A stretch of DNA of 64,000 bases from Solirubrobacterales bacterium. GTDB taxonomy: Bacteria; Actinomycetota; Thermoleophilia; Solirubrobacterales; Solirubrobacteraceae. Below are positions 1,067 through 60,834 of the stretch, piece by piece. How positions within the stretch are numbered: the first letter of the stretch is position 1; every line of letters begins with the position of its first letter. The notes under the pieces were generated by a model. It ran no database searches and had not been told where the DNA came from. It saw nothing but the letters and a program-made list of their open reading frames with translations. Made by a program: the position numbers and the translations under genes. Location: NCBI GenBank assembly GCA_019240305.1, contig JAFAYP010000573.1, forward strand, positions 34,239 through 98,238. Direction: 5' to 3'.

Positions 1067-1348
1067 CTACGAGGCCTTGGTCGCCGCGACCGGGTGTTTG
1101 CGCGCTTCGTCGTAGAGCGGCTCGGGCGCCATGTCGAGGTCGCCGGGCCACGCGATCGTGCCGAACTGTTCTTCGACGTGGACCTGGGCGAAGACGGTCG
1201 GATCCTGGAGGGCCTGAAAGACGCCGCACCAGTCGTTCTCGGCGAAGCTGACGTCGCCGACGACGCCGTCGTCGAAAGTGAGCCGGAGAACGTAGTCGTC
1301 GATCACCTCGACGGAGGTCACCGCGGGGAGTGCGGGAACATTGGCCAT
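1067..1348 (-). CDS. DUF2442 domain protein
   Basis: MANVPALPAVTSVEVIDDYVLRLTFDDGVVGDVSF... typical DUF2442 pattern. Confidence 0.8.
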   Translation of the reverse strand: MANVPALPAVTSVEVIDDYVLRLTFDDGVVGDVSFAENDWCGVFQALQDPTVFAQVHVEEQFGTIAWPGDLDMAPEPLYDEARKHPVAATKAS

Positions 1349-1358
1349 GAAGGGCAGG

Positions 1359-1622
1359 TTACGAAAGCGGAGCGATCGGCAGAAGCGGCTCCTGGCATCG
1401 TGCCCGCTCCCAATTCGCGACGAGCTCGTCGCGATGGAGCGCGGCCCATTCGCGGACGAGCGCGAGGTCGTGCCTCGTGAGCCCGCCGGCCAAGAGCTGA
1501 CCGTCGACCGAGATCGATGCGCGCCTGCCGGCGTGCTCCGCGTGGAAATGAGCGATGGGGTGGTCGCGCTCGTTCCAGAACATCGCGATCGTGATTCCGT
1601 GGAACGCGCTGATGCGGGGCAT
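1359..1622 (-). CDS. DUF4160 domain protein
   Basis: MPRISAFHGITIAMFWNERDHPIAHFHAEHAGRRASISVDGQLLAG...: DUF4160 pattern; immediately upstream of DUF2442. Confidence 0.8.
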   Translation of the reverse strand: MPRISAFHGITIAMFWNERDHPIAHFHAEHAGRRASISVDGQLLAGGLTRHDLALVREWAALHRDELVANWERARCQEPLLPIAPLS

Positions 1623-1639
1623 CAGGGCGCCGCGTCGGC

Positions 1640-2214
1640 GGGCACATCCGGACCCGCCGTGGCTCGGAGGCCTGAGCCACCAGAGCGGCATCGTCGGGCC
1701 GCGGCACGTAGTGCAGGTAACGCATCGTCGTCTGGACGTCGGCGTGCCCCATCCACTCCGGAAGGCGGTGGATGTCGGTCGTGGCGATCATGCGCGTGCC
1801 AAAGGTGTGGCGCAGGTCGTGGAAGCGCAGCGGACGGAGGCCGGCGCGTCGCAGCGCGACGCCGTAACGGCGGCGCAGCGCGGACCCGTCGAGGTTTTCG
1901 CCCTCCGAGCCTGGGAACACCAGGTCGTCGTCGCCGACGAACCGATCGCGGCGGCCGAGCCCGGCGAGCACTTCGGCGACGTCGGGGGCCATCGGGACGG
2001 ATCGGACCTTGCCGGACTTGGGTGACGTGAGCGTGCCGGCGGAGTAGCTCGCGCGGACACGGACCCCAGAACCCGCGAAGTCGACGTCGTGCCAGCGCAG
2101 CGCGAGCAGCTCGCGGCGCAGGCCGGTGAATGCCGCGGTCACGAAGATCGCGCCGTCCTGCTCCGATCCGGCAGCACGCGCGAGGGCCATGACCTCCTCC
2201 GGCTCCGGGGACAT
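1640..2214 (-). pseudogene. tyrosine recombinase/integrase, C-terminal catalytic remnant
   Basis: FTGLRRELLALRW, LRFHDLRHTFGTRM, LPEWMGHADVQTTMRYLHY catalytic motifs; N-terminal core-binding domain missing, in-frame TGA just upstream of the ATG at 2214. Confidence 0.8.
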
Positions 2215-2602: not shown

Positions 2603-2794
2603 GTGGCGATGCGCGAAGGAACGAAGTCCGCCGAGAGCAGCGGGGCGGTCGTGGCCATAGAGGCCGCGTCGACTGAGGAAGTACTCGCAGAGCTGCGGAG
2701 CGACCTGGGGCGCGCTATTGCGCGCCTTCCCGCTTCCTGCGAGTGGCGCTGGGTTGCGCTGCGGATGGAACGGGCGCTAGCTCGGCACGTCTGA
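2603..2794 (+). CDS. small hypothetical ORF, convergent with repressor
   Basis: 63-aa ORF; overlaps repressor 3' end. Confidence 0.3.
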   Translation: MAMREGTKSAESSGAVVAIEAASTEEVLAELRSDLGRAIARLPASCEWRWVALRMERALARHV

Positions 2795-3149
2795 TGTGAT
2801 CCACGATCGTCTGGATCGCCAGCGGGTCGTCTCTCTTGCCGTCGTGGGCGCCCTTGGCCTCCTCGACGCCCTCGGCTTCCTCGGCCGTGAGCGGTGCGTC
2901 GCCGAGGGCCTGCCACTGCTCTACGGCCTTCGCGACTAGCGCGCGCGGGTCTATGCCGTCGAAGCTGGCGTAGCCGGCGGCGTACGCCTCGAAGTTCTCT
3001 GACGGGAAGGTGATCCCCTTCTCGAATCGTGTGATGCTCGCGTCAGCGACGCCTACGCGGCTGGCAACCCGGGAGGGCTTGAGCCCCTTCCGTTGACTGA
3101 TCTCGACGCAGGCGGCCCGGAAGAATGGTCGGAAGCTTGTGCGATCCAT
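2715..3149 (-). CDS. XRE/HTH phage repressor (CI-like)
   Basis: MDRTSFRPFFRAACVEISQRKGLKPSRVASRVGVADASITRFEKGITFPS: HTH_XRE; divergent from a Cro-like gene. Confidence 0.8.
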   Translation of the reverse strand: MDRTSFRPFFRAACVEISQRKGLKPSRVASRVGVADASITRFEKGITFPSENFEAYAAGYASFDGIDPRALVAKAVEQWQALGDAPLTAEEAEGVEEAKGAHDGKRDDPLAIQTIVDHIRRAELAPVPSAAQPSATRRKREGAQ

Positions 3150-3159
3150 AGCTGGGCCG

Positions 3160-3188
3160 AGCCTAGACACGTCGTGTCCCGTTGTCAA
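3160..3188 (-). promoter_or_regulatory. repressor promoter
   Basis: Minus strand TTGACA (3188-3183) N17 TAGGCT (3165-3160), 10 nt before ATG 3149; palindrome in the spacer. Confidence 0.65.
3166..3178. promoter_or_regulatory. operator candidate 1
   Basis: GACA-CGTCG-TGTC inverted repeat. Confidence 0.65.
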
Positions 3189-3205
3189 GACTTGCGCAAC
3201 CTTCA

Positions 3206-3222
3206 CCTAGACAAGCCGCGCA
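3206..3222. promoter_or_regulatory. operator candidate 2 (degenerate)
   Basis: CCTAGACAAGCCGCGCA, shares CCTAGACA half with operator 1. Confidence 0.35.
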
Positions 3223-3246
3223 AACGCAGCGTGCCCGCATAGTATC

Positions 3247-3274
3247 TTGACATGGCGTGTCGGCATGGTATGTT
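3247..3274 (+). promoter_or_regulatory. promoter of Cro-like gene with overlapping operator 3
   Basis: TTGACA (3247-3252) N16 TATGTT (3269-3274), ATG at 3282; GACA-TGGCG-TGTC palindrome at 3249-3261 overlaps the -35. Confidence 0.65.
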
Positions 3275-3281
3275 GGTTGCC

Positions 3282-3515
3282 ATGTCGAACCCCAACCGAA
3301 TCCAGGAGCTCCGGGAAGCCGCCGGAATCAGCCGGGTCGAGCTTGCGGCTCGGCTTGGCGTCACGGATCGCACGGTTGCCCGCTGGGAGCGCGGCGACGT
3401 TCAGATCCCCGACGAGCAGAAGCTGGCCCTCGCCGACGTCTTCGAGACGACGGTGACGCACGTGATGGGCTGGGACGAGTCCAACGGCAATGGCGTCGAG
3501 GCGGCTGCGCCATGA
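3282..3515 (+). CDS. Cro/XRE-like transcriptional regulator
   Basis: MSNPNRIQELREAAGISRVELAARLGVTDRTVARWERGDVQIPDEQKLALADVF: HTH_XRE. Confidence 0.85.
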   Translation: MSNPNRIQELREAAGISRVELAARLGVTDRTVARWERGDVQIPDEQKLALADVFETTVTHVMGWDESNGNGVEAAAP

Positions 3516-6585: not shown

Positions 6586-7305
6586 ATGGCCGCCATCTAC
6601 TACAAGGCGTGTCGCCCAACCGAGCCGGCGACGGACTTCCATACCGGGACCATCAAGTATGAGGTCGGCATGCGCGCCCGTCCCCACAAGCACGAAGGCG
6701 TGGCGAGCATCTGTGGGCCGGGGGTCCTCCACGCGGCTGACGTGCCCGCCATGACCCTGATCAGCGGAGCCTGGCCGTGTCGCCTGTTTGAGGTCACCGG
6801 CAGGCCTATTGCTGGCTTCGACTCCTGCCATGAGCATAAGGGTGGCTTCGAGCAGTTGACGGTGGTGCGCGAACTCGACGCGCATCTCGCCCTCGGCCCG
6901 AATGGGCGCTACGTGGCCGGGATCATCGAGCGGTCCAAGCGATTGACTCGCGACGAGGCCAAGGCGCTTCGGGACGCAGCGCGGGACGCAGCGCGGGACG
7001 CAGCGTGGGGCGCAGCGCGGGACGCAGCGTGGGGCGCAGCGCGGGACGCAGCGCGGGACGCAGCGTGGGGCGCAGCGCGGGACGCAGCGTGGGGCGCAGC
7101 GTGGGACGCAGCGTGGGGCGCAGCGCGGGACGCAGCGTGGGGCGCAGCGTGGGGCGCAATTGCCCTGCTCATGCGTGACCTCATCACCCCCGAGCAGTTC
7201 GACCTGCTCTACGGCCCTTGGGCCGCGGTCGTCGGCTCGGCCGAGGACATGCTCGCCTACTACGAACAGCACCGCAGGGATACGGGTGGCGAAGATGGCC
7301 GGTAA
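6586..7305 (+). CDS. hypothetical phage protein with tetrapeptide (RDAA/WGAA) repeat
   Basis: 239-aa ORF; middle third is a tandem 12-bp repeat. Confidence 0.75.
   Translation: MAAIYYKACRPTEPATDFHTGTIKYEVGMRARPHKHEGVASICGPGVLHAADVPAMTLISGAWPCRLFEVTGRPIAGFDSCHEHKGGFEQLTVVRELDAHLALGPNGRYVAGIIERSKRLTRDEAKALRDAARDAARDAAWGAARDAAWGAARDAARDAAWGAARDAAWGAAWDAAWGAARDAAWGAAWGAIALLMRDLITPEQFDLLYGPWAAVVGSAEDMLAYYEQHRRDTGGEDGR
6970..7158. repeat. 12-bp tandem repeat array, about 16 units
   Basis: Alternating cgggacgcagcg / tggggcgcagcg / tgggacgcagcg units. Confidence 0.95.
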
Positions 7306-48336: not shown

Positions 48337-48380
48337 GGAGTTTGAACTGGCCTCCTAGGGGGGGCCGCACGGAAGGAGCC

Positions 48381-48905
48381 ATGACCTTGGCCGCCCGGCC
48401 TATCAGCATCATTCTTGGCGTGGTTGCCTGCTGCTCTGTGGTCGCAGCCTTGGCTACGGCGGCCACTACGGCCACCAAGCCGGCGCCGCGCTGCGCTAGC
48501 GCGCACCAGAACGTCGCCGCCGTCAGCCTCTCGCGGACACGACGCGCCCTTGTCTGTCTCGTCAACCTGCAACGCGCCGCTAATCATCTGCCACCGCTTA
48601 TCGAAAGCCGGCAGCTCGACTGGGCGGCGCAACAGTGGACCACCTACATGGCTGTCCACCACGACTTTGGGCATAGCGCGGACTGGTCGCAGCGCATCTG
48701 GAACGATGGCTATCACTGGTCTTTCGCTGGCGAGAACATCGCCAGCGGATTCCACAATGCTGCCGCTGCGGTCAACGCTTGGATGCAGAGTCCCGGGCAC
48801 CGCGCGAACATCTTGGACCCGAACTACCGAAACATCGGGTCGGGCGTAAGTGCGGCGGCGGGTGGTACGTGGACCCAGGATTTCGGGGCGCGGCTCAGTC
48901 CCTAA
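48381..48905 (+). CDS. secreted CAP-domain protein
   Basis: Signal peptide; CLVNLQRAANHLPPLIESRQLDWAAQQW...AGENIASGFHNAAAAVNAWMQSPGHRANILDPNYRNIGSGV: CAP superfamily. Confidence 0.88.
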   Translation: MTLAARPISIILGVVACCSVVAALATAATTATKPAPRCASAHQNVAAVSLSRTRRALVCLVNLQRAANHLPPLIESRQLDWAAQQWTTYMAVHHDFGHSADWSQRIWNDGYHWSFAGENIASGFHNAAAAVNAWMQSPGHRANILDPNYRNIGSGVSAAAGGTWTQDFGARLSP

Positions 48906-49147
48906 AGGCCCTTCTTGAAGGTGATCGTGACCTGCGGCTGCGAGCCGAACGACTTCGTGGCCGACTGCCCCTGGACCGTCCATCCCTGTTCGACATAGCG
49001 TCGGATCGTGCTGTTGGCGAATGCGGCCTTGGTGGTTTCGACGCGGATGCTGCCCCGGGGCGCGGCACGGAGCTTGCGCCTCTCGGACCTCAGGGCGATG
49101 GTGCCGACGAGCATGACGAACGCGACGGCAAGAATGAACGTGGTCAT
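48902..49147 (-). CDS. small membrane-anchored protein
   Basis: MTTFILAVAFVMLVGTIALRSERRKLRAAPRG...; N-term TM helix; minus strand against the late operon. Confidence 0.65.
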   Translation of the reverse strand: MTTFILAVAFVMLVGTIALRSERRKLRAAPRGSIRVETTKAAFANSTIRRYVEQGWTVQGQSATKSFGSQPQVTITFKKGL

Positions 49148-49290
49148 GGCTGCCTTTCTGCTGCCTGGTGGGGGCCTTCTAGGCGCTGCTCAACCGCTCG
49201 CCTGATCCAGACGGTTCGGGGCACGTCGCCGCGGGCCTGATCGATTGCTTCAAGCAGTTCCTCGGGGAGCGGAAGATTGATGCTCTTCAT
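49144..49290 (-). CDS. 48-aa ribbon-helix-helix DNA-binding protein
   Basis: MKSINLPLPEELLEAIDQARGDVPRTVWIRRAVEQRLEGPHQAAERQP; ATGA overlap with the membrane gene. Not in the supplied ORF list (short). Confidence 0.75.
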   Translation of the reverse strand: MKSINLPLPEELLEAIDQARGDVPRTVWIRRAVEQRLEGPHQAAERQP

Positions 49291-49301
49291 GGGGGGGCAT
49301 G

Positions 49302-49330
49302 AATGTACATCGGCGTACATGTGGTGTCAA
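49302..49330 (-). promoter_or_regulatory. promoter with overlapping palindromic operator for RHH/TM operon
   Basis: Minus strand TTGACA (49330-49325) N17 TACATT (49307-49302); ATGTAC-ATCGGC-GTACAT inverted repeat at 49303-49320. Confidence 0.75.
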
Positions 49331-49346: not shown

Positions 49347-49685
49347 GTGGAGAACGAATTGACTGACGATCAGAATGAGGGCTTCGATAGCGGTAGTCGC
49401 GACCGCGCCACCGTGGCGCTCGTCTCAGAGCAGGTCAAGGGCGTTGAGCGTCTAGTCGACGCCGGCTTCGCCAATATGCAGCGCCAGCTTGACCAGGTTT
49501 CGAGCCTCCCCGTCGCCGTGGCCGAGCTCAAGGCCCAGAACGTGGACCAGGAGAAGCGCATCAAGCGCATCGAGGACGACGATAAGGGCAATAGCGAGTG
49601 GCGCCGGACGCATCTACCCGCGCTTGCAGTCTCCGTAGGCCTGCTCGGCGCGGCCATCGTGACGCTGATGGCGCAGCTTCACTGA
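49347..49685 (+). CDS. C-terminal-TM protein, possible holin/XhlA-like
   Basis: GTG start; coiled-coil then LPALAVSVGLLGAAIVTLMAQLH. Confidence 0.5.
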   Translation: MENELTDDQNEGFDSGSRDRATVALVSEQVKGVERLVDAGFANMQRQLDQVSSLPVAVAELKAQNVDQEKRIKRIEDDDKGNSEWRRTHLPALAVSVGLLGAAIVTLMAQLH

Positions 49686-51738: not shown

Positions 51739-52650
51739 ATGGCCGAGCTGCCTCGTAACGGCACGTTGCTCGAACTCGCAGAGAAGTATCAGACCAACCA
51801 GGCGCTCGCCGACCATCTTGGCGTGCCCCGGACCACCCTCCGGGATCATATCTACCGGCTGGGCATGCAGGAGGCCGTGAACGCGGTTCGCCGGCTGCCA
51901 GAGGTTGCGCAGCCCGACGAGATCCCAGTGGTCCGACGGGACTACTCCCACCAGGAGAAGCATTACCTCTACCCGCTGGGGGATCTTCACGTTGGGGCGA
52001 AGATGCACAACGAGAAGATGTGGAGCCAGTGGCTCGCCTACCTTGAGGATCGCGAGGAGACGAGCCTTCTGCTGACGGGCGACCTGTTGAACTCGGCGAT
52101 CGTCGGCAGCAAGTCGGACGTGTACGAGGAGCTGATGACCGTCGGCGACGCGAAGCGCCTCGTTCGCAAGCAGCTCTCCGTGCTTGCGAAGGAACGTCGC
52201 ATCGACGGCGCGGTCCCCGGCAACCATGAGGACCGAATCACTCGGGCCACCGGGGACTGCCCCATCCGGGACATCTGCGACGAGTTGAGCGTCCCGTACA
52301 TTCGGGCGGCGGCGCTGTTGATCTACACGGTCGGGGATCAGCAGTACGAGGTGTTTCTGCGTCACGGCACGGGCAGCGGCCAGGCGTTGACCGCGCTGAC
52401 GAGGACGCAGCAGGTCATCCGAGCGGACGTGTACATCCACGGGCACATTCACAATCAGGCCGCTCGCGTGGGGGACATGTTCGAGGCGAACGCGGGCCGG
52501 GTGAGCCGGCGGAAGTTCATCGCCTTGACGTCGGGGAGCTTCCTCGCGTATGAGAACTATGCGGCGGTGCGGGGCTACGCGCCGGGACATATGGGTTCGC
52601 CTCGCATCTTCCTGTCGGGGCGGCGGCACGACTTCCACGTCAGCCTGTGA
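51739..52650 (+). CDS. HTH-calcineurin-like metallophosphoesterase fusion
   Basis: N-term HTH (NQALADHLGVPRTTLRDHIYRLG); LGDLHVGAKMH...LLTGDLLNSA...GNHEDR...VYIHGHIHNQ. Confidence 0.82.
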   Translation: MAELPRNGTLLELAEKYQTNQALADHLGVPRTTLRDHIYRLGMQEAVNAVRRLPEVAQPDEIPVVRRDYSHQEKHYLYPLGDLHVGAKMHNEKMWSQWLAYLEDREETSLLLTGDLLNSAIVGSKSDVYEELMTVGDAKRLVRKQLSVLAKERRIDGAVPGNHEDRITRATGDCPIRDICDELSVPYIRAAALLIYTVGDQQYEVFLRHGTGSGQALTALTRTQQVIRADVYIHGHIHNQAARVGDMFEANAGRVSRRKFIALTSGSFLAYENYAAVRGYAPGHMGSPRIFLSGRRHDFHVSL

Positions 52651-54932
52651 GCGTAGGCGTTCCGGACGCAACGTCCGAGGGTCGCGATAAGCGTCGGCGC
52701 GTGCCATACGCCGAGTTCATCCGGCTCAAGCAGCTTGCCGACCCGCCGACGGGCTTCGACGCTCTCAGCGTGGGCGACTTCCTGTTCGATTGGCAGCAGG
52801 AGGTCGTGCGCTGGGCGCTTCAGCGCGGCCGGGCTGCGATCTTTGCCGATTGCGGCCTAGGCAAGACGCCGATCCAGCTGGAGTGGGCGCATCGCGTCTG
52901 CGAGCACTACGGCTCCGCAGCCAAGGTTCTGATTCTCGCGCCCTTGGCCGTCTCGGCGCAGACGTCGCGCGAGGGCGAGAAGTTCGGCCTCGGGGTCACG
53001 GTCTGTCGCGAGTCGGTCGACGTGCGCGACGGGATCAATGTCACGAACTACGAGCGTCTTGAGCGATTCAACCCGCGGGACTTCGACGGGATCGTGCTCG
53101 ACGAGTCGAGCATCCTGAAGTCCTACGATGGGAAGGTCCGCGGCCAGATCCAGGAGTTTGCGCGCCGAATCCCGTTCCGTCTCGCCTGCACGGCCACGCC
53201 CGCGCCGAACGATCACGCCGAGCTCGCGAACCACGCCGAGTTCCTGGGCGTGATGTCCGGCCGCGAGATGCTGGCCCTGTTCTTCAAGCAGGACGGCAAC
53301 ACAACGCACAAGTGGCGACTGAAGGGCCACGCCGAGTCGGAGTTCTGGAGGTGGCTGGCAACGTGGGCTGTGGCGCTGCGCTCGCCAGCCGACCTTGGAT
53401 ACGACGATGCGCAGTTCCGGCTCCCGAAGCTGAACATGCACAGCATCGTCGTCCCGTCCCCCCACGCTGGTGTCGGCTTGTTCAACGCGGAGGCGCAGAC
53501 GCTTCAAGAGCGCCAGCAGGCTCGCAAGCTGTCGATCCGCGAGCGAGTCGATGCCATCGCGGCCTACGTGAACACTGACGACGAACAGTGGCTCGTGTGG
53601 TGCAACCTCAATGCCGAGTCCGACGCTCTCGTCCGAGCGATCCCCGGCGCCGTCGAGGTCAAGGGTGCGGATAGCGCCGAGCACAAAGAGATGGCGATGC
53701 TGGACTTCTCCAGCGGGGACATCCGCGTGCTGGTTACGAAGCCGACGATCGCCGGGTTTGGGATGAACTGGCAGCAGTGCAAGAACGTCGCCTTCGTGGG
53801 GCTGTCGGACAGCTATGAGCAGTTCTACCAAGCGGTCCGTCGCTCGTGGCGGTTCGGGCAGCGCCGGCCGGTTGATTGCTACGTGGTGACCGCCGAGGCT
53901 GAGGGTGCTGTCGTTCGGAACATTGAGCGCAAGGAGCGCCAGGCGGCGCAGATGATGGAGAGCATCGTGGAGCACACTCAGGGCCTGAGTCTCGGGCGGT
54001 CGGATCGTCATGTTGTCGCCCACGAAACCGAGTCGCGCGAGGGCGCGGGGTGGACGCTGCATCTCGGCGATTGCGTTGACCGGCTCGCCGACGTGCAGGA
54101 CGCCAGCGTGGGGCTGTCGATCTTCAGCCCGCCCTTCCCGGGCATGTACGCCTACACGAACACTCCGCACGACATGGGCAACGTGGCGTCCCAGGAGGAG
54201 ATGGTCGAGCAGTTCGCCTACCTCGTGCCTGAGCTCCTGCGCGTGATGATGCCGGGACGCACCGTGGGAATACACCTGACGCAGGGCGTGGCGTTCAAGG
54301 GCACGGACGGCCACGTCGGGATCAAGGACTTCCGCGGCGCGGTGATCCGCACAATGGAACGAGGCGGCTTCATCTACTACGGCGAGGTCTGCATCGACAA
54401 GGATCCGCAGCTCAAGGCGATCCGGACGAAGGACAGCGGACTGCTGTTCAAGTCCTTGGCGACCGACGCCGCGAAGATGCACATGGCATTGGCCGACTAC
54501 GTGCTCCAGTTCCGCAAGCCGGGCGACAACCCCGAGCCGATCCGTGCCGGCGTATCCGAGAAGTACCGCAATCCCGACGGCTGGATCACGGCCGATGAAT
54601 GGATCGAGTGGGCCTCCCCAGTCTGGCAGCGCCGCCGCCCGGAGTTCCCGAACGGGATCCAGGAGACGAACGTGCTCAACGTTCGCGTGGCGAGCGAGGA
54701 GAAGGACGAGCGCCACCTCTGCCCACTGCAGCTTGACGTGATCGAGCGGTGCGTCAAGCTGTGGAGCAACCCCGGAGACCTTGTGCTCAGCCCGTTCGCC
54801 GGCATCGGCTCGGAGGGGCATGTGGCGCTGAAGCTGCGGCGGCGATTCGTCGGGGTTGAGCTGAAGCGCAGCTACTACGAGACAGCGTGCCGCAACTTGG
54901 AGGCGTCCGAGCAGCAGCTTGAACTCGTGTGA
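52647..54932 (+). CDS. SNF2-type helicase fused to beta-class DNA amino-methyltransferase
   Basis: ADCGLGKTPIQLEWA, VLDESSILKS, CTATPAPNDHAEL, GFGMNWQ, VRRSWRFGQRRPVDCYV; then SPPFPGMYAYTN and C-terminal LVLSPFAGIGSEGHVALKLRRRFVGVELKRSYYETA. Confidence 0.88.
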   Translation: MSVGVPDATSEGRDKRRRVPYAEFIRLKQLADPPTGFDALSVGDFLFDWQQEVVRWALQRGRAAIFADCGLGKTPIQLEWAHRVCEHYGSAAKVLILAPLAVSAQTSREGEKFGLGVTVCRESVDVRDGINVTNYERLERFNPRDFDGIVLDESSILKSYDGKVRGQIQEFARRIPFRLACTATPAPNDHAELANHAEFLGVMSGREMLALFFKQDGNTTHKWRLKGHAESEFWRWLATWAVALRSPADLGYDDAQFRLPKLNMHSIVVPSPHAGVGLFNAEAQTLQERQQARKLSIRERVDAIAAYVNTDDEQWLVWCNLNAESDALVRAIPGAVEVKGADSAEHKEMAMLDFSSGDIRVLVTKPTIAGFGMNWQQCKNVAFVGLSDSYEQFYQAVRRSWRFGQRRPVDCYVVTAEAEGAVVRNIERKERQAAQMMESIVEHTQGLSLGRSDRHVVAHETESREGAGWTLHLGDCVDRLADVQDASVGLSIFSPPFPGMYAYTNTPHDMGNVASQEEMVEQFAYLVPELLRVMMPGRTVGIHLTQGVAFKGTDGHVGIKDFRGAVIRTMERGGFIYYGEVCIDKDPQLKAIRTKDSGLLFKSLATDAAKMHMALADYVLQFRKPGDNPEPIRAGVSEKYRNPDGWITADEWIEWASPVWQRRRPEFPNGIQETNVLNVRVASEEKDERHLCPLQLDVIERCVKLWSNPGDLVLSPFAGIGSEGHVALKLRRRFVGVELKRSYYETACRNLEASEQQLELV

Positions 54933-55744
54933 TCCCCGCCGAGCTGCGCGACCGCCGGCAGTGGGTTGCGTGGCGCAGTGAGGTGCGCGTCGGCCGCCCT
55001 ACCAAGGTGCCGGTCGACCCGCACACCGGGGGACGCGCCTCGAGCGTCGACCCCGCGACCTGGGCGACCTACCGTGAGGCGCTGGCGTGCGTGGAGGCGG
55101 ACGGGATCGGCTTCGTGTTCAGCGCCGACGACCCGTACGTGGGCGTCGACATGGACAATTGCGTGAGCCGAAGCGGGCAGATTCACCCGGGCGCCTACCG
55201 GGTCGTGAAGCTGCTCTCCGGGTACGTCGAGTTCAGCCCGTCCGGGCACGGGATGCACGTGATCGTCCGCGGCTCCCTGGGGCGTGGTCGACATACCCTC
55301 GCAACGCCGTGGCGGGATGAGCTCGCGATCTACGATCGCGGCCGCTTCTTCACCATGACTGATGAGGGTCGCGGCGAGCCGAGGGAGGCGCAGGACGCAT
55401 TGAGCGAGCTGATCGCCTTCTACTTCCCCGAGCCCGACGATAAGCCCCCTGTCGCGCACCGTCAGCCCCTCTGCGACGATGACGCGGGGGTGGTGGACCG
55501 AATCATGGGGGACGCCCGGACGGCAGCCCTGTGGGCCGGAGACACGTCCCTGCATGGTGGCGATCACTCGGCCGCGGACATGGCGCTGTGCGCGCACCTT
55601 GCGTACTTCACCGGGAACGACGCGGCGAGGATCGATGCCCTGTTCAGACGCAGTGCCCTGTTCCGGGACAAGTGGGATGAGCCGAGGGGGGATGGGACCT
55701 ATGGGTCGATCACCATCGAACGGGCGCTGCGTGGCCGCTCGTAA
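54929..55744 (+). CDS. primase-polymerase (NrS-1-like PrimPol domain)
   Basis: GIGFVFSADDPYVGVDMDNCVSRSG...VEFSPSGHGMHVIVRG...ELAIYDRGRFFTMT. Confidence 0.75.
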   Translation: MIPAELRDRRQWVAWRSEVRVGRPTKVPVDPHTGGRASSVDPATWATYREALACVEADGIGFVFSADDPYVGVDMDNCVSRSGQIHPGAYRVVKLLSGYVEFSPSGHGMHVIVRGSLGRGRHTLATPWRDELAIYDRGRFFTMTDEGRGEPREAQDALSELIAFYFPEPDDKPPVAHRQPLCDDDAGVVDRIMGDARTAALWAGDTSLHGGDHSAADMALCAHLAYFTGNDAARIDALFRRSALFRDKWDEPRGDGTYGSITIERALRGRS

Positions 55745-59227: not shown

Positions 59228-60289
59228 ATGCCGGCTACGCAGCGCGGTCAGGTCGACCGCATCGCCGCCGGGAAGTGGCGCCTTCGCTGGTACGACCTCG
59301 ACGGCAAGCGCCACGCCAAGCAGCCGTTCTCGTCCAAGTCCGCCGCGTGGAAGCACTTCCGCGAGCACGTCGAGCCGCTGCTAACCGGAGGAACGCCCCC
59401 GCGGCCCGAGCTGACGTTGAGCGAGTTCATCGCGCTCTACCTCGACCGCCACGCTGCGGACGTTCGCCCAAGGACGATCGCTACGCTGCGGGAACGACTC
59501 GGCCACGCGGAGCGACGGTTCGGCGCGCTCCCTCTCCACGAGCTGGAGGGCATGACGGACGAGATCGTGGCGTGGCGTACCCGACAGCCAGCACGGATCG
59601 CTCACGGGCGCATGAGCGCCCTGCGGCAGTGTCTCGCCGCCGCGGTCCGCTGGGGCTACATGACGCGCAACCCGGCCGTTCTCGCGGGGCGTAACCGTCG
59701 CCCCGCTCCGCGCACCATCCGCGCGTTCTCGATGGGCGAGCTTGAGGCGATCAGCGTCGAGCTTTCCCCGCAGTACCGGTCGGTCCCGTTGTTCGCTGCT
59801 GCTACTGGCCTCCGTCCGGAGGAGTGGCAGGCGCTCGAACGCCGGGACATTGATCGCGCCGCTGGCGTTCTGGGCGTCCGGCGCACCATCTCATCAGGCA
59901 AGGTTGTCGAGCTCGGGAAGACTTCCCGTTCTCGGCGACAGGTGCCGCTGTCCCCTCGGGCCTTGGCTGCGCTTGACGCGCTGCCTGCTCGGCTGGGCAC
60001 GCCCCTGCTGTGGCCGTCCCCTACGGGCGGCCTCCTTTGCTTGGATAACTGGCGGTCGCGTGAGTGGTCGCCTGCGGTCGAGGCGGCCGGGGTTCGTCGG
60101 CCGGCGCGGATCTACGATCTGCGCTCCACGTTCGCGTCGAATGCCCTGGCTGCTGGCGTGAGCGCGTTTGAGCTGGCGCGGATCATGGGAACGAGCGTGG
60201 CGATGATCGAGCTGCACTACGGCTCCCTGTTGGATGGGGCGGCGGCGGGGATCGCGGCGCGGCTGGGCGCCTTTGAGGCGACGAGCTAG
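59228..60289 (+). CDS. int: tyrosine-family phage integrase
   Basis: FAAATGLRPEEWQALERRDI, GKTSRSRRQVPL, RIYDLRSTFASNALAAG, MGTSVAMIELHYGSL. Confidence 0.92.
   Translation: MPATQRGQVDRIAAGKWRLRWYDLDGKRHAKQPFSSKSAAWKHFREHVEPLLTGGTPPRPELTLSEFIALYLDRHAADVRPRTIATLRERLGHAERRFGALPLHELEGMTDEIVAWRTRQPARIAHGRMSALRQCLAAAVRWGYMTRNPAVLAGRNRRPAPRTIRAFSMGELEAISVELSPQYRSVPLFAAATGLRPEEWQALERRDIDRAAGVLGVRRTISSGKVVELGKTSRSRRQVPLSPRALAALDALPARLGTPLLWPSPTGGLLCLDNWRSREWSPAVEAAGVRRPARIYDLRSTFASNALAAGVSAFELARIMGTSVAMIELHYGSLLDGAAAGIAARLGAFEATS

Positions 60290-60758: not shown

Positions 60759-60834
<76 letters not shown>

Follow-up and report, generated by a model that had tools for sequence, protein, structure and literature searches.

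What are two very small genes doing on the minus strand of a prophage, opposite to the plus-strand late (virion and lysis) genes among which they lie? The question is raised by a 64-kb stretch of DNA from a Solirubrobacterales bacterium (contig JAFAYP010000573.1; hereafter the window), which forms the end of a 98-kb contig in a draft genome of 3.68 Mb (633 contigs, 73% complete). One of the two genes encodes a 48-aa ribbon-helix-helix (RHH) protein and the other an 81-aa membrane-anchored protein. We consider it fairly probable that together they form an autorepressed, lysogeny-expressed cargo operon of the 'moron' type that opposes the prophage late genes. The operon is real, well-formed and probably functional; from its sequence we infer RHH binding, repression and lysogenic expression, as well as an exclusion or defence role for the membrane protein. 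The following features carry the argument.

49325-49330, minus strand: -35 hexamer TTGACA
49315-49320, minus strand: predicted operator box 1, ATGTAC, with GTAC at 49315-49318, within the -35/-10 spacer
49303-49310, minus strand: predicted operator box 2, ATGTACAT, with GTAC at 49305-49308, overlapping the -10 hexamer and offset by 10 bp from box 1
49302-49307, minus strand: -10 hexamer TACATT, separated from the -35 hexamer by a 17-nt spacer
49144-49290, minus strand: 48-aa RHH protein, a predicted autorepressor, recognised through Pfam RHH_1, its homologs and an AlphaFold2 (AF2) model
48902-49147, minus strand: 81-aa membrane-anchored protein with an N-terminal transmembrane (TM) segment, ATGA-coupled to the RHH gene

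A preliminary description of this DNA had reported a TTGACA-N17-TACATT promoter, a 48-aa RHH open reading frame (ORF), ATGA coupling to a membrane ORF and a palindrome, all of which are present at the positions given here. The promoter is the sole 9/12 match to consensus between 44 and 54 kb, where 1.3 are expected anywhere per 10 kb, and it is among just three 10/12 matches in the whole window, another of which lies at the cro-like gene of the prophage immunity region. The RHH start codon follows only 11 nt downstream of the -10 hexamer, behind a C7 tract without a Shine-Dalgarno sequence, and the RHH mRNA therefore probably has little or no leader. The cro-like gene is arranged alike, with 8 nt between -10 and start codon (TATGTT, 8 nt, ATG), and its mRNA would be leaderless. 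The RHH stop codon, TGA, and the start codon of the 81-aa ORF, ATG (49147), overlap, and a Shine-Dalgarno sequence, AAAGG, serves this second ORF. A stoperator-like reading of TGTCAAG (49325), a 7-mer that occurs five times in the window, three of them near the immunity region, was discarded, as it merely contains the complement of the -35 hexamer.

The RHH protein belongs with the CopG/Arc-type DNA-binding proteins, which are marked by a short N-terminal strand of alternating polar and hydrophobic character and a pair of helices linked through a turn with a G; it has a profile match to Pfam RHH_1 (E 7e-4; 19.8 bits, 0.7 bits short of the gathering score of 20.5). In the AF2 model the helices span residues 10-20 and 25-37 with a predicted local distance difference test (pLDDT) score of ~92, the strand being unformed in the monomer. 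Homologs share 50-57% identity over the domain, the ARGDVP turn is conserved among the close ones, and just ~10 residues follow the domain. Foldseek returned nothing useful for the models of either protein. RHH matches at three further loci (L031, L033 and L034) appear to be BrnA-type antitoxins, members of a distant family instead of close relatives.

RHH dimers bind one short, near-symmetric box each, with adjacent dimers about one helical turn apart, as in MetJ, Arc and CopG. The preliminary description had proposed a perfect palindromic operator, and the inverted repeat ATGTAC-ATCGGC-GTACAT is indeed present at 49303-49320; by itself it says little, because perfect 6-N6-6 inverted repeats are common in the window (30 in all). 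For the consensus, allowing up to two mismatches, 0.31 occurrences are expected. Read on the gene strand, the same DNA is ATGTAC-GCCG-ATGTAC-AT, in which one 6-mer occurs twice at a spacing of 10 bp between the -35 and -10 hexamers; the apparent long dyad arises because box 2 extends to the self-complementary ATGTACAT, which occurs once in the window. We accordingly replace the palindrome with two direct ATGTAC boxes in a 10-bp register, and sequence comparison indicates that the feature common to the homologs is this tandem direct repeat, not a palindrome. GTACN6GTAC occurs seven times in the 3.68-Mb genome. In a control set of 1306 ATG starts (ORFs of at least 45 codons, 129 kb), a TTGAYA hexamer stood in the same place at six and a 10-bp repeat at 11, while both coincided at one, the RHH start itself, against an expectation of ~0.05. 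On these counts, the position and 10-bp direct-repeat structure of the predicted operator are not due to chance, and the repeated short boxes over the gene's own promoter are the layout of an RHH autorepressor operon.

The same layout was sought in homologous loci from 146 host-family genomes and a wider class sample, in which close RHH homologs are few; the 10-bp offset had been taken from the window before these few homologs were tested. In genome G379, an RHH gene 54-57% identical to ours lies in another prophage, in a 17-kb stretch with ORFs that we read as terminase-, methyltransferase- and RusA-like. Here GTACCGC is found twice at 10 bp (GTAC-N6-GTAC), 34 nt upstream of the ATG; the GTACN6GTAC pattern has eight occurrences in the 5.1 Mb of that genome, or ~2e-4 per 150 bp. 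Lambda YlcI/YnfO-type proteins match the G379 homolog with E ~7-8, which is merely a lead. The RHH gene of G020, which lies in another mobile element within the host genus, and its ortholog in G012 are 34-38% identical to ours and overlap an integrase gene. Behind TTGATA, the G020 spacer has two copies of TGCTAG at a 10-bp distance, and G012 carries TTGACA with TGCTAG/TGATAG boxes at 10 bp; both hexamers stand 36-37 nt upstream of the ATG. RHH genes of G797 and G798, which are 50-53% identical, lie in integrative elements, and in each a small TM protein gene follows by stop/start coupling. Dinucleotide-shuffle P values for the offset-10 repeat run are 0.02 for the window, 0.01 for G379, 0.03 for G020, 0.16 for G012 and ~1 for G797/G798. 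Judged by these sequences, the operator layout is real for part of the RHH group. The DNA-contacting strands (KSINLPL, ASTSFRL, PAFSISL and PYVNIYL) differ among the proteins, and the predicted box sequences vary as this strand varies. The two related integrative elements of G797 and G798 (loci L043 and L044) also carry ORFs that we read as serine recombinase-like, FtsK-like ATPase and capsid-like, and a strongly conserved GCGCGCGCCGCGCCATCGTGTTACGGG stretch lies upstream of their RHH genes.

The operon occupies a 441-nt gap, the sole large one among the plus-strand late genes, all other gaps at 44-55 kb being no longer than ~50 nt or overlaps, and it sits between tail/secreted-protein genes and putative lysis genes. 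An insertion of extra genes with their own promoter between conserved phage genes is one mark of a moron. The immediate neighbours and the limits of the element are listed below.

48342-48905, plus strand: left neighbour, a secreted CAP/YkwD-domain protein (Pfam CAP, E 1.4e-18)
49347-49685, plus strand: right neighbour, divergent, a coiled-coil protein with a C-terminal TM segment, weakly LysB-like (NCBIfam LysB, E 1.6e-3, sub-cutoff)
2284-2327: attL, a 44-bp exact direct repeat
60759-60802: attR, the second 44-bp copy, within an intact tRNA-Arg(acg) gene (60760-60834)
2715-3515: immunity region, with a minus-strand helix-turn-helix repressor gene (start 3149) and a plus-strand cro-like gene (start 3283)

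The 44-bp att repeats at tRNA-Arg delimit a prophage of ~58.5 kb whose gene content includes the immunity region, a portal, a prohead protease, a tail-lysozyme protein and an integrase (59228-60289). The element that hosts the operon is proven to be a complete integrated prophage. Of the earlier proposal of an autorepressed moron, autorepression and a moron-like position are the parts that draw support from the promoter/operator layout of the homologs, the sole large late-gene gap and the complete prophage.

On the left, the 81-aa ORF and the CAP/YkwD gene meet tail to tail, their stop codons overlapping by 4 nt. The CAP/YkwD gene, which lies among the late genes, is 73% identical over 113 nt to a gene that this genome carries on a different contig (L002), and a host origin for it is suggested by sequence. 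On the right, 49347-49685 begins a run of small TM/coiled-coil genes that is probably the lysis cassette. Elsewhere in the prophage setting, the integrase ORF at 59228-60289 (plus strand), inside attR, is the prophage's own, while a second at 1318-2214 (minus strand), just outside attL, encodes 298 aa with the N-terminus apparently absent and may have been left behind by a different element using the same tRNA-Arg. A single 761-aa ORF at 52647-54932 (plus strand) joins an SNF2/helicase-C domain to an N6/N4 DNA methylase domain; the next gene (54929-55744) encodes an NrS-1 polymerase HBD domain. A strongly repetitive Ala/Arg-rich tract (6909-7187), with repeats such as RDAAWGAARDAA, lies in the plus-strand frame 6586-7305.

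The 81-aa protein has a strong TM segment at residues 3-19 (mean hydropathy 2.6), preceded by no charged residue and followed by six K/R within 15 residues, and from this charge distribution the positive-inside rule predicts an N-out/C-in orientation. Single-sequence AF2 gave a helix followed by a beta-alpha-beta-beta arrangement at a pLDDT of 64, a model that is suggestive only of a beta-alpha-beta-beta domain, predicted to be cytoplasmic. Against random frames, the codon score of the ORF ranks at the 95th percentile. Two sets of matches to this protein were rejected: the genome-contig match L013 extends over 20 residues within a YSC84-like protein and is, in our reading, due to chance, and the class-level matches L005-L012 fall within longer unrelated frames.

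Several observations weigh against the interpretation of the locus as an autorepressed cargo operon. Searches of Pfam, PHROGs, NCBIfam, PADLOC, 50,697 phage records, 72,556 plasmids, 399 genomes of the class and GTDB contigs returned no relative of the 81-aa protein, and its function is therefore a guess. The codon score of the RHH gene is unremarkable. A moron would have a transcription terminator of its own, but a simple scan of 44-54 kb, which could miss one, found no terminator-like site on the minus strand. G797 and G798 share the gene architecture but have no 10-bp repeat upstream of the RHH gene, and pooled over all homologs the sequence evidence for the repeat is moderate.

The architecture of two overlapping genes with the RHH gene first is also that of a type II toxin-antitoxin operon, in which an RHH antitoxin would bind a membrane-protein toxin and autoregulate the pair, as the preliminary description had entertained. 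The RHH protein has a weak match to Pfam CopG_antitoxin (E 0.014, far under the cutoff), and among PDB sequences it matches CopA_SO best, at an E of 0.46 that lacks significance; CopA_SO is a prophage antitoxin whose operator has the same register. In CopA_SO-ParE_SO of prophage CP4So of Shewanella oneidensis, the RHH autorepressor binds GTANTAC-N3-GTANTAC with a dissociation constant of ~16 nM and neutralises the toxin through a C-terminal domain (PMC8706911). The two loci are alike in having a prophage RHH autorepressor, predicted in the present case, and short self-complementary boxes in a 10-bp register (GTAC-N6-GTAC here). However, where CopA_SO has its toxin-binding C-terminal domain, our protein has only ~10 residues beyond the RHH fold, and the partner, instead of a ParE, is a TM protein that lacks a toxin fold, belongs to no toxin family in Pfam, NCBIfam or PADLOC and has no informative PHROGs match. 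The genes to which the homologous RHH genes are coupled are unrelated to one another (an integrase, other TM proteins), a pattern that fits a portable autoregulator, not a co-evolved antitoxin. The toxin-antitoxin reading is therefore disfavoured and, in our judgement, unlikely. The notion that the ORFs are a decayed or fortuitous, functionless pair in an intergenic insertion, to which their shortness, the lack of relatives of the 81-aa protein and the weak codon score of the RHH ORF lend something, fares far worse: the RHH domain is recognisable and has conserved homologs, the coupling is precise and accompanied by a Shine-Dalgarno sequence, the promoter is near consensus, the operator layout is common to homologs and the 81-aa codon score is good, so that we regard it as very improbable.

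Two further alternatives were considered. In P22 immI, the RHH gene mnt and the membrane exclusion gene sieA oppose the late genes and are largely unread from the late message, and a comparable secondary immunity system here would have an RHH repressor that chiefly targets another gene beside a SieA-like exclusion membrane protein. The operator does lie between divergent genes, and both loci place an RHH and a membrane gene with their own promoters opposite late genes (mnt, orf59a and sieA against late genes 16 and 9 in P22). In P22, however, mnt and sieA are separately promoted and mnt controls arc/ant, whereas here no antirepressor or arc-like gene lies across the operator, the divergent genes being coiled-coil/TM putative lysis genes; BLASTP detected no similarity of the RHH protein to Arc or Mnt, and neither scan nor eye found a plus-strand promoter around the operator. 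Such a system is improbable at this locus; P22 mnt/sieA is the nearest functional parallel, but the operon is not a member of that system. Alternatively, the minus promoter could obey the main CI/Cro-like repressors, whose operators are GACACGTCGTGTC at 3166 and GACATGGCGTGTC at 3249, the latter overlapping the -35 hexamer of the cro-like promoter (immunity region, 3160-3285). On that account GACACCACATGTA (49328-49316, minus strand), which matches at 11 of 13 positions and, like the cro-promoter operator, overlaps the -35 hexamer, would be a degenerate GACAYGNCRTGTC operator. Yet ~10 unrelated sites in the window match equally well, four of the matched bases merely belong to TTGACA, and GACACCACATGTA fails at both half-sites where both clear operators match perfectly, which leaves control by CI/Cro quite improbable.

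Other known systems resemble the operon in part. The integrase-coupled RHH genes of G012/G020 share a homologous domain, stop/start coupling and TTGAYA with a 10-bp repeat, and the TM-coupled genes of G797/G798 share the domain and the coupling but have operators that look different; all four belong to mobile elements found within one host family, that of our operon, and their downstream genes differ from ours. The gp30/gp31 pairs of Butters and Sbash are actinophage prophage defence pairs expressed in lysogeny from a variable central region (PMC7542560). They too are small operons with a membrane component, but they pair a 4-TM protein with a cytoplasmic effector and have no RHH autorepressor.

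Under the autorepressed cargo-operon interpretation, the host sigma-70-type RNA polymerase would initiate at the minus promoter (49330-49302) and produce a nearly leaderless mRNA encoding the RHH protein and the stop/start-coupled 81-aa membrane protein. The RHH protein would dimerise, and a pair of dimers would occupy the adjacent ATGTAC boxes, with one turn of the helix from one to the next. The -35/-10 spacer and the -10 hexamer would thereby be covered and the output of the operon kept low and steady. A constitutive prophage promoter controlled in this way would supply the lysogen with a small, controlled dose of the membrane protein, and after induction late plus-strand transcription would cross the operon as antisense. 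The membrane protein would most likely protect or modify the envelope of the lysogen, the leading guess being exclusion of other phages.

Autoregulated operons of the moron type are already known from late-gene regions; the one part that known families do not account for is the 81-aa protein. It is a doubtful but conceivable extension that this protein may be the first member of a new membrane-anchored phage-exclusion or lysis-modulating class, carried by a portable cassette of an RHH autorepressor and any small coupled gene that is exchanged among mobile elements of the uncultured host family. The sequence predicts a lysogeny-expressed gene of a size that the usual length cut-offs miss, together with a precise operator (ATGTAC twice, in a 10-bp register). 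If this is true, cargo operons in the prophages of uncultured hosts could be recognised by a small RHH gene that is preceded by TTGAYA and a 10-bp repeat.
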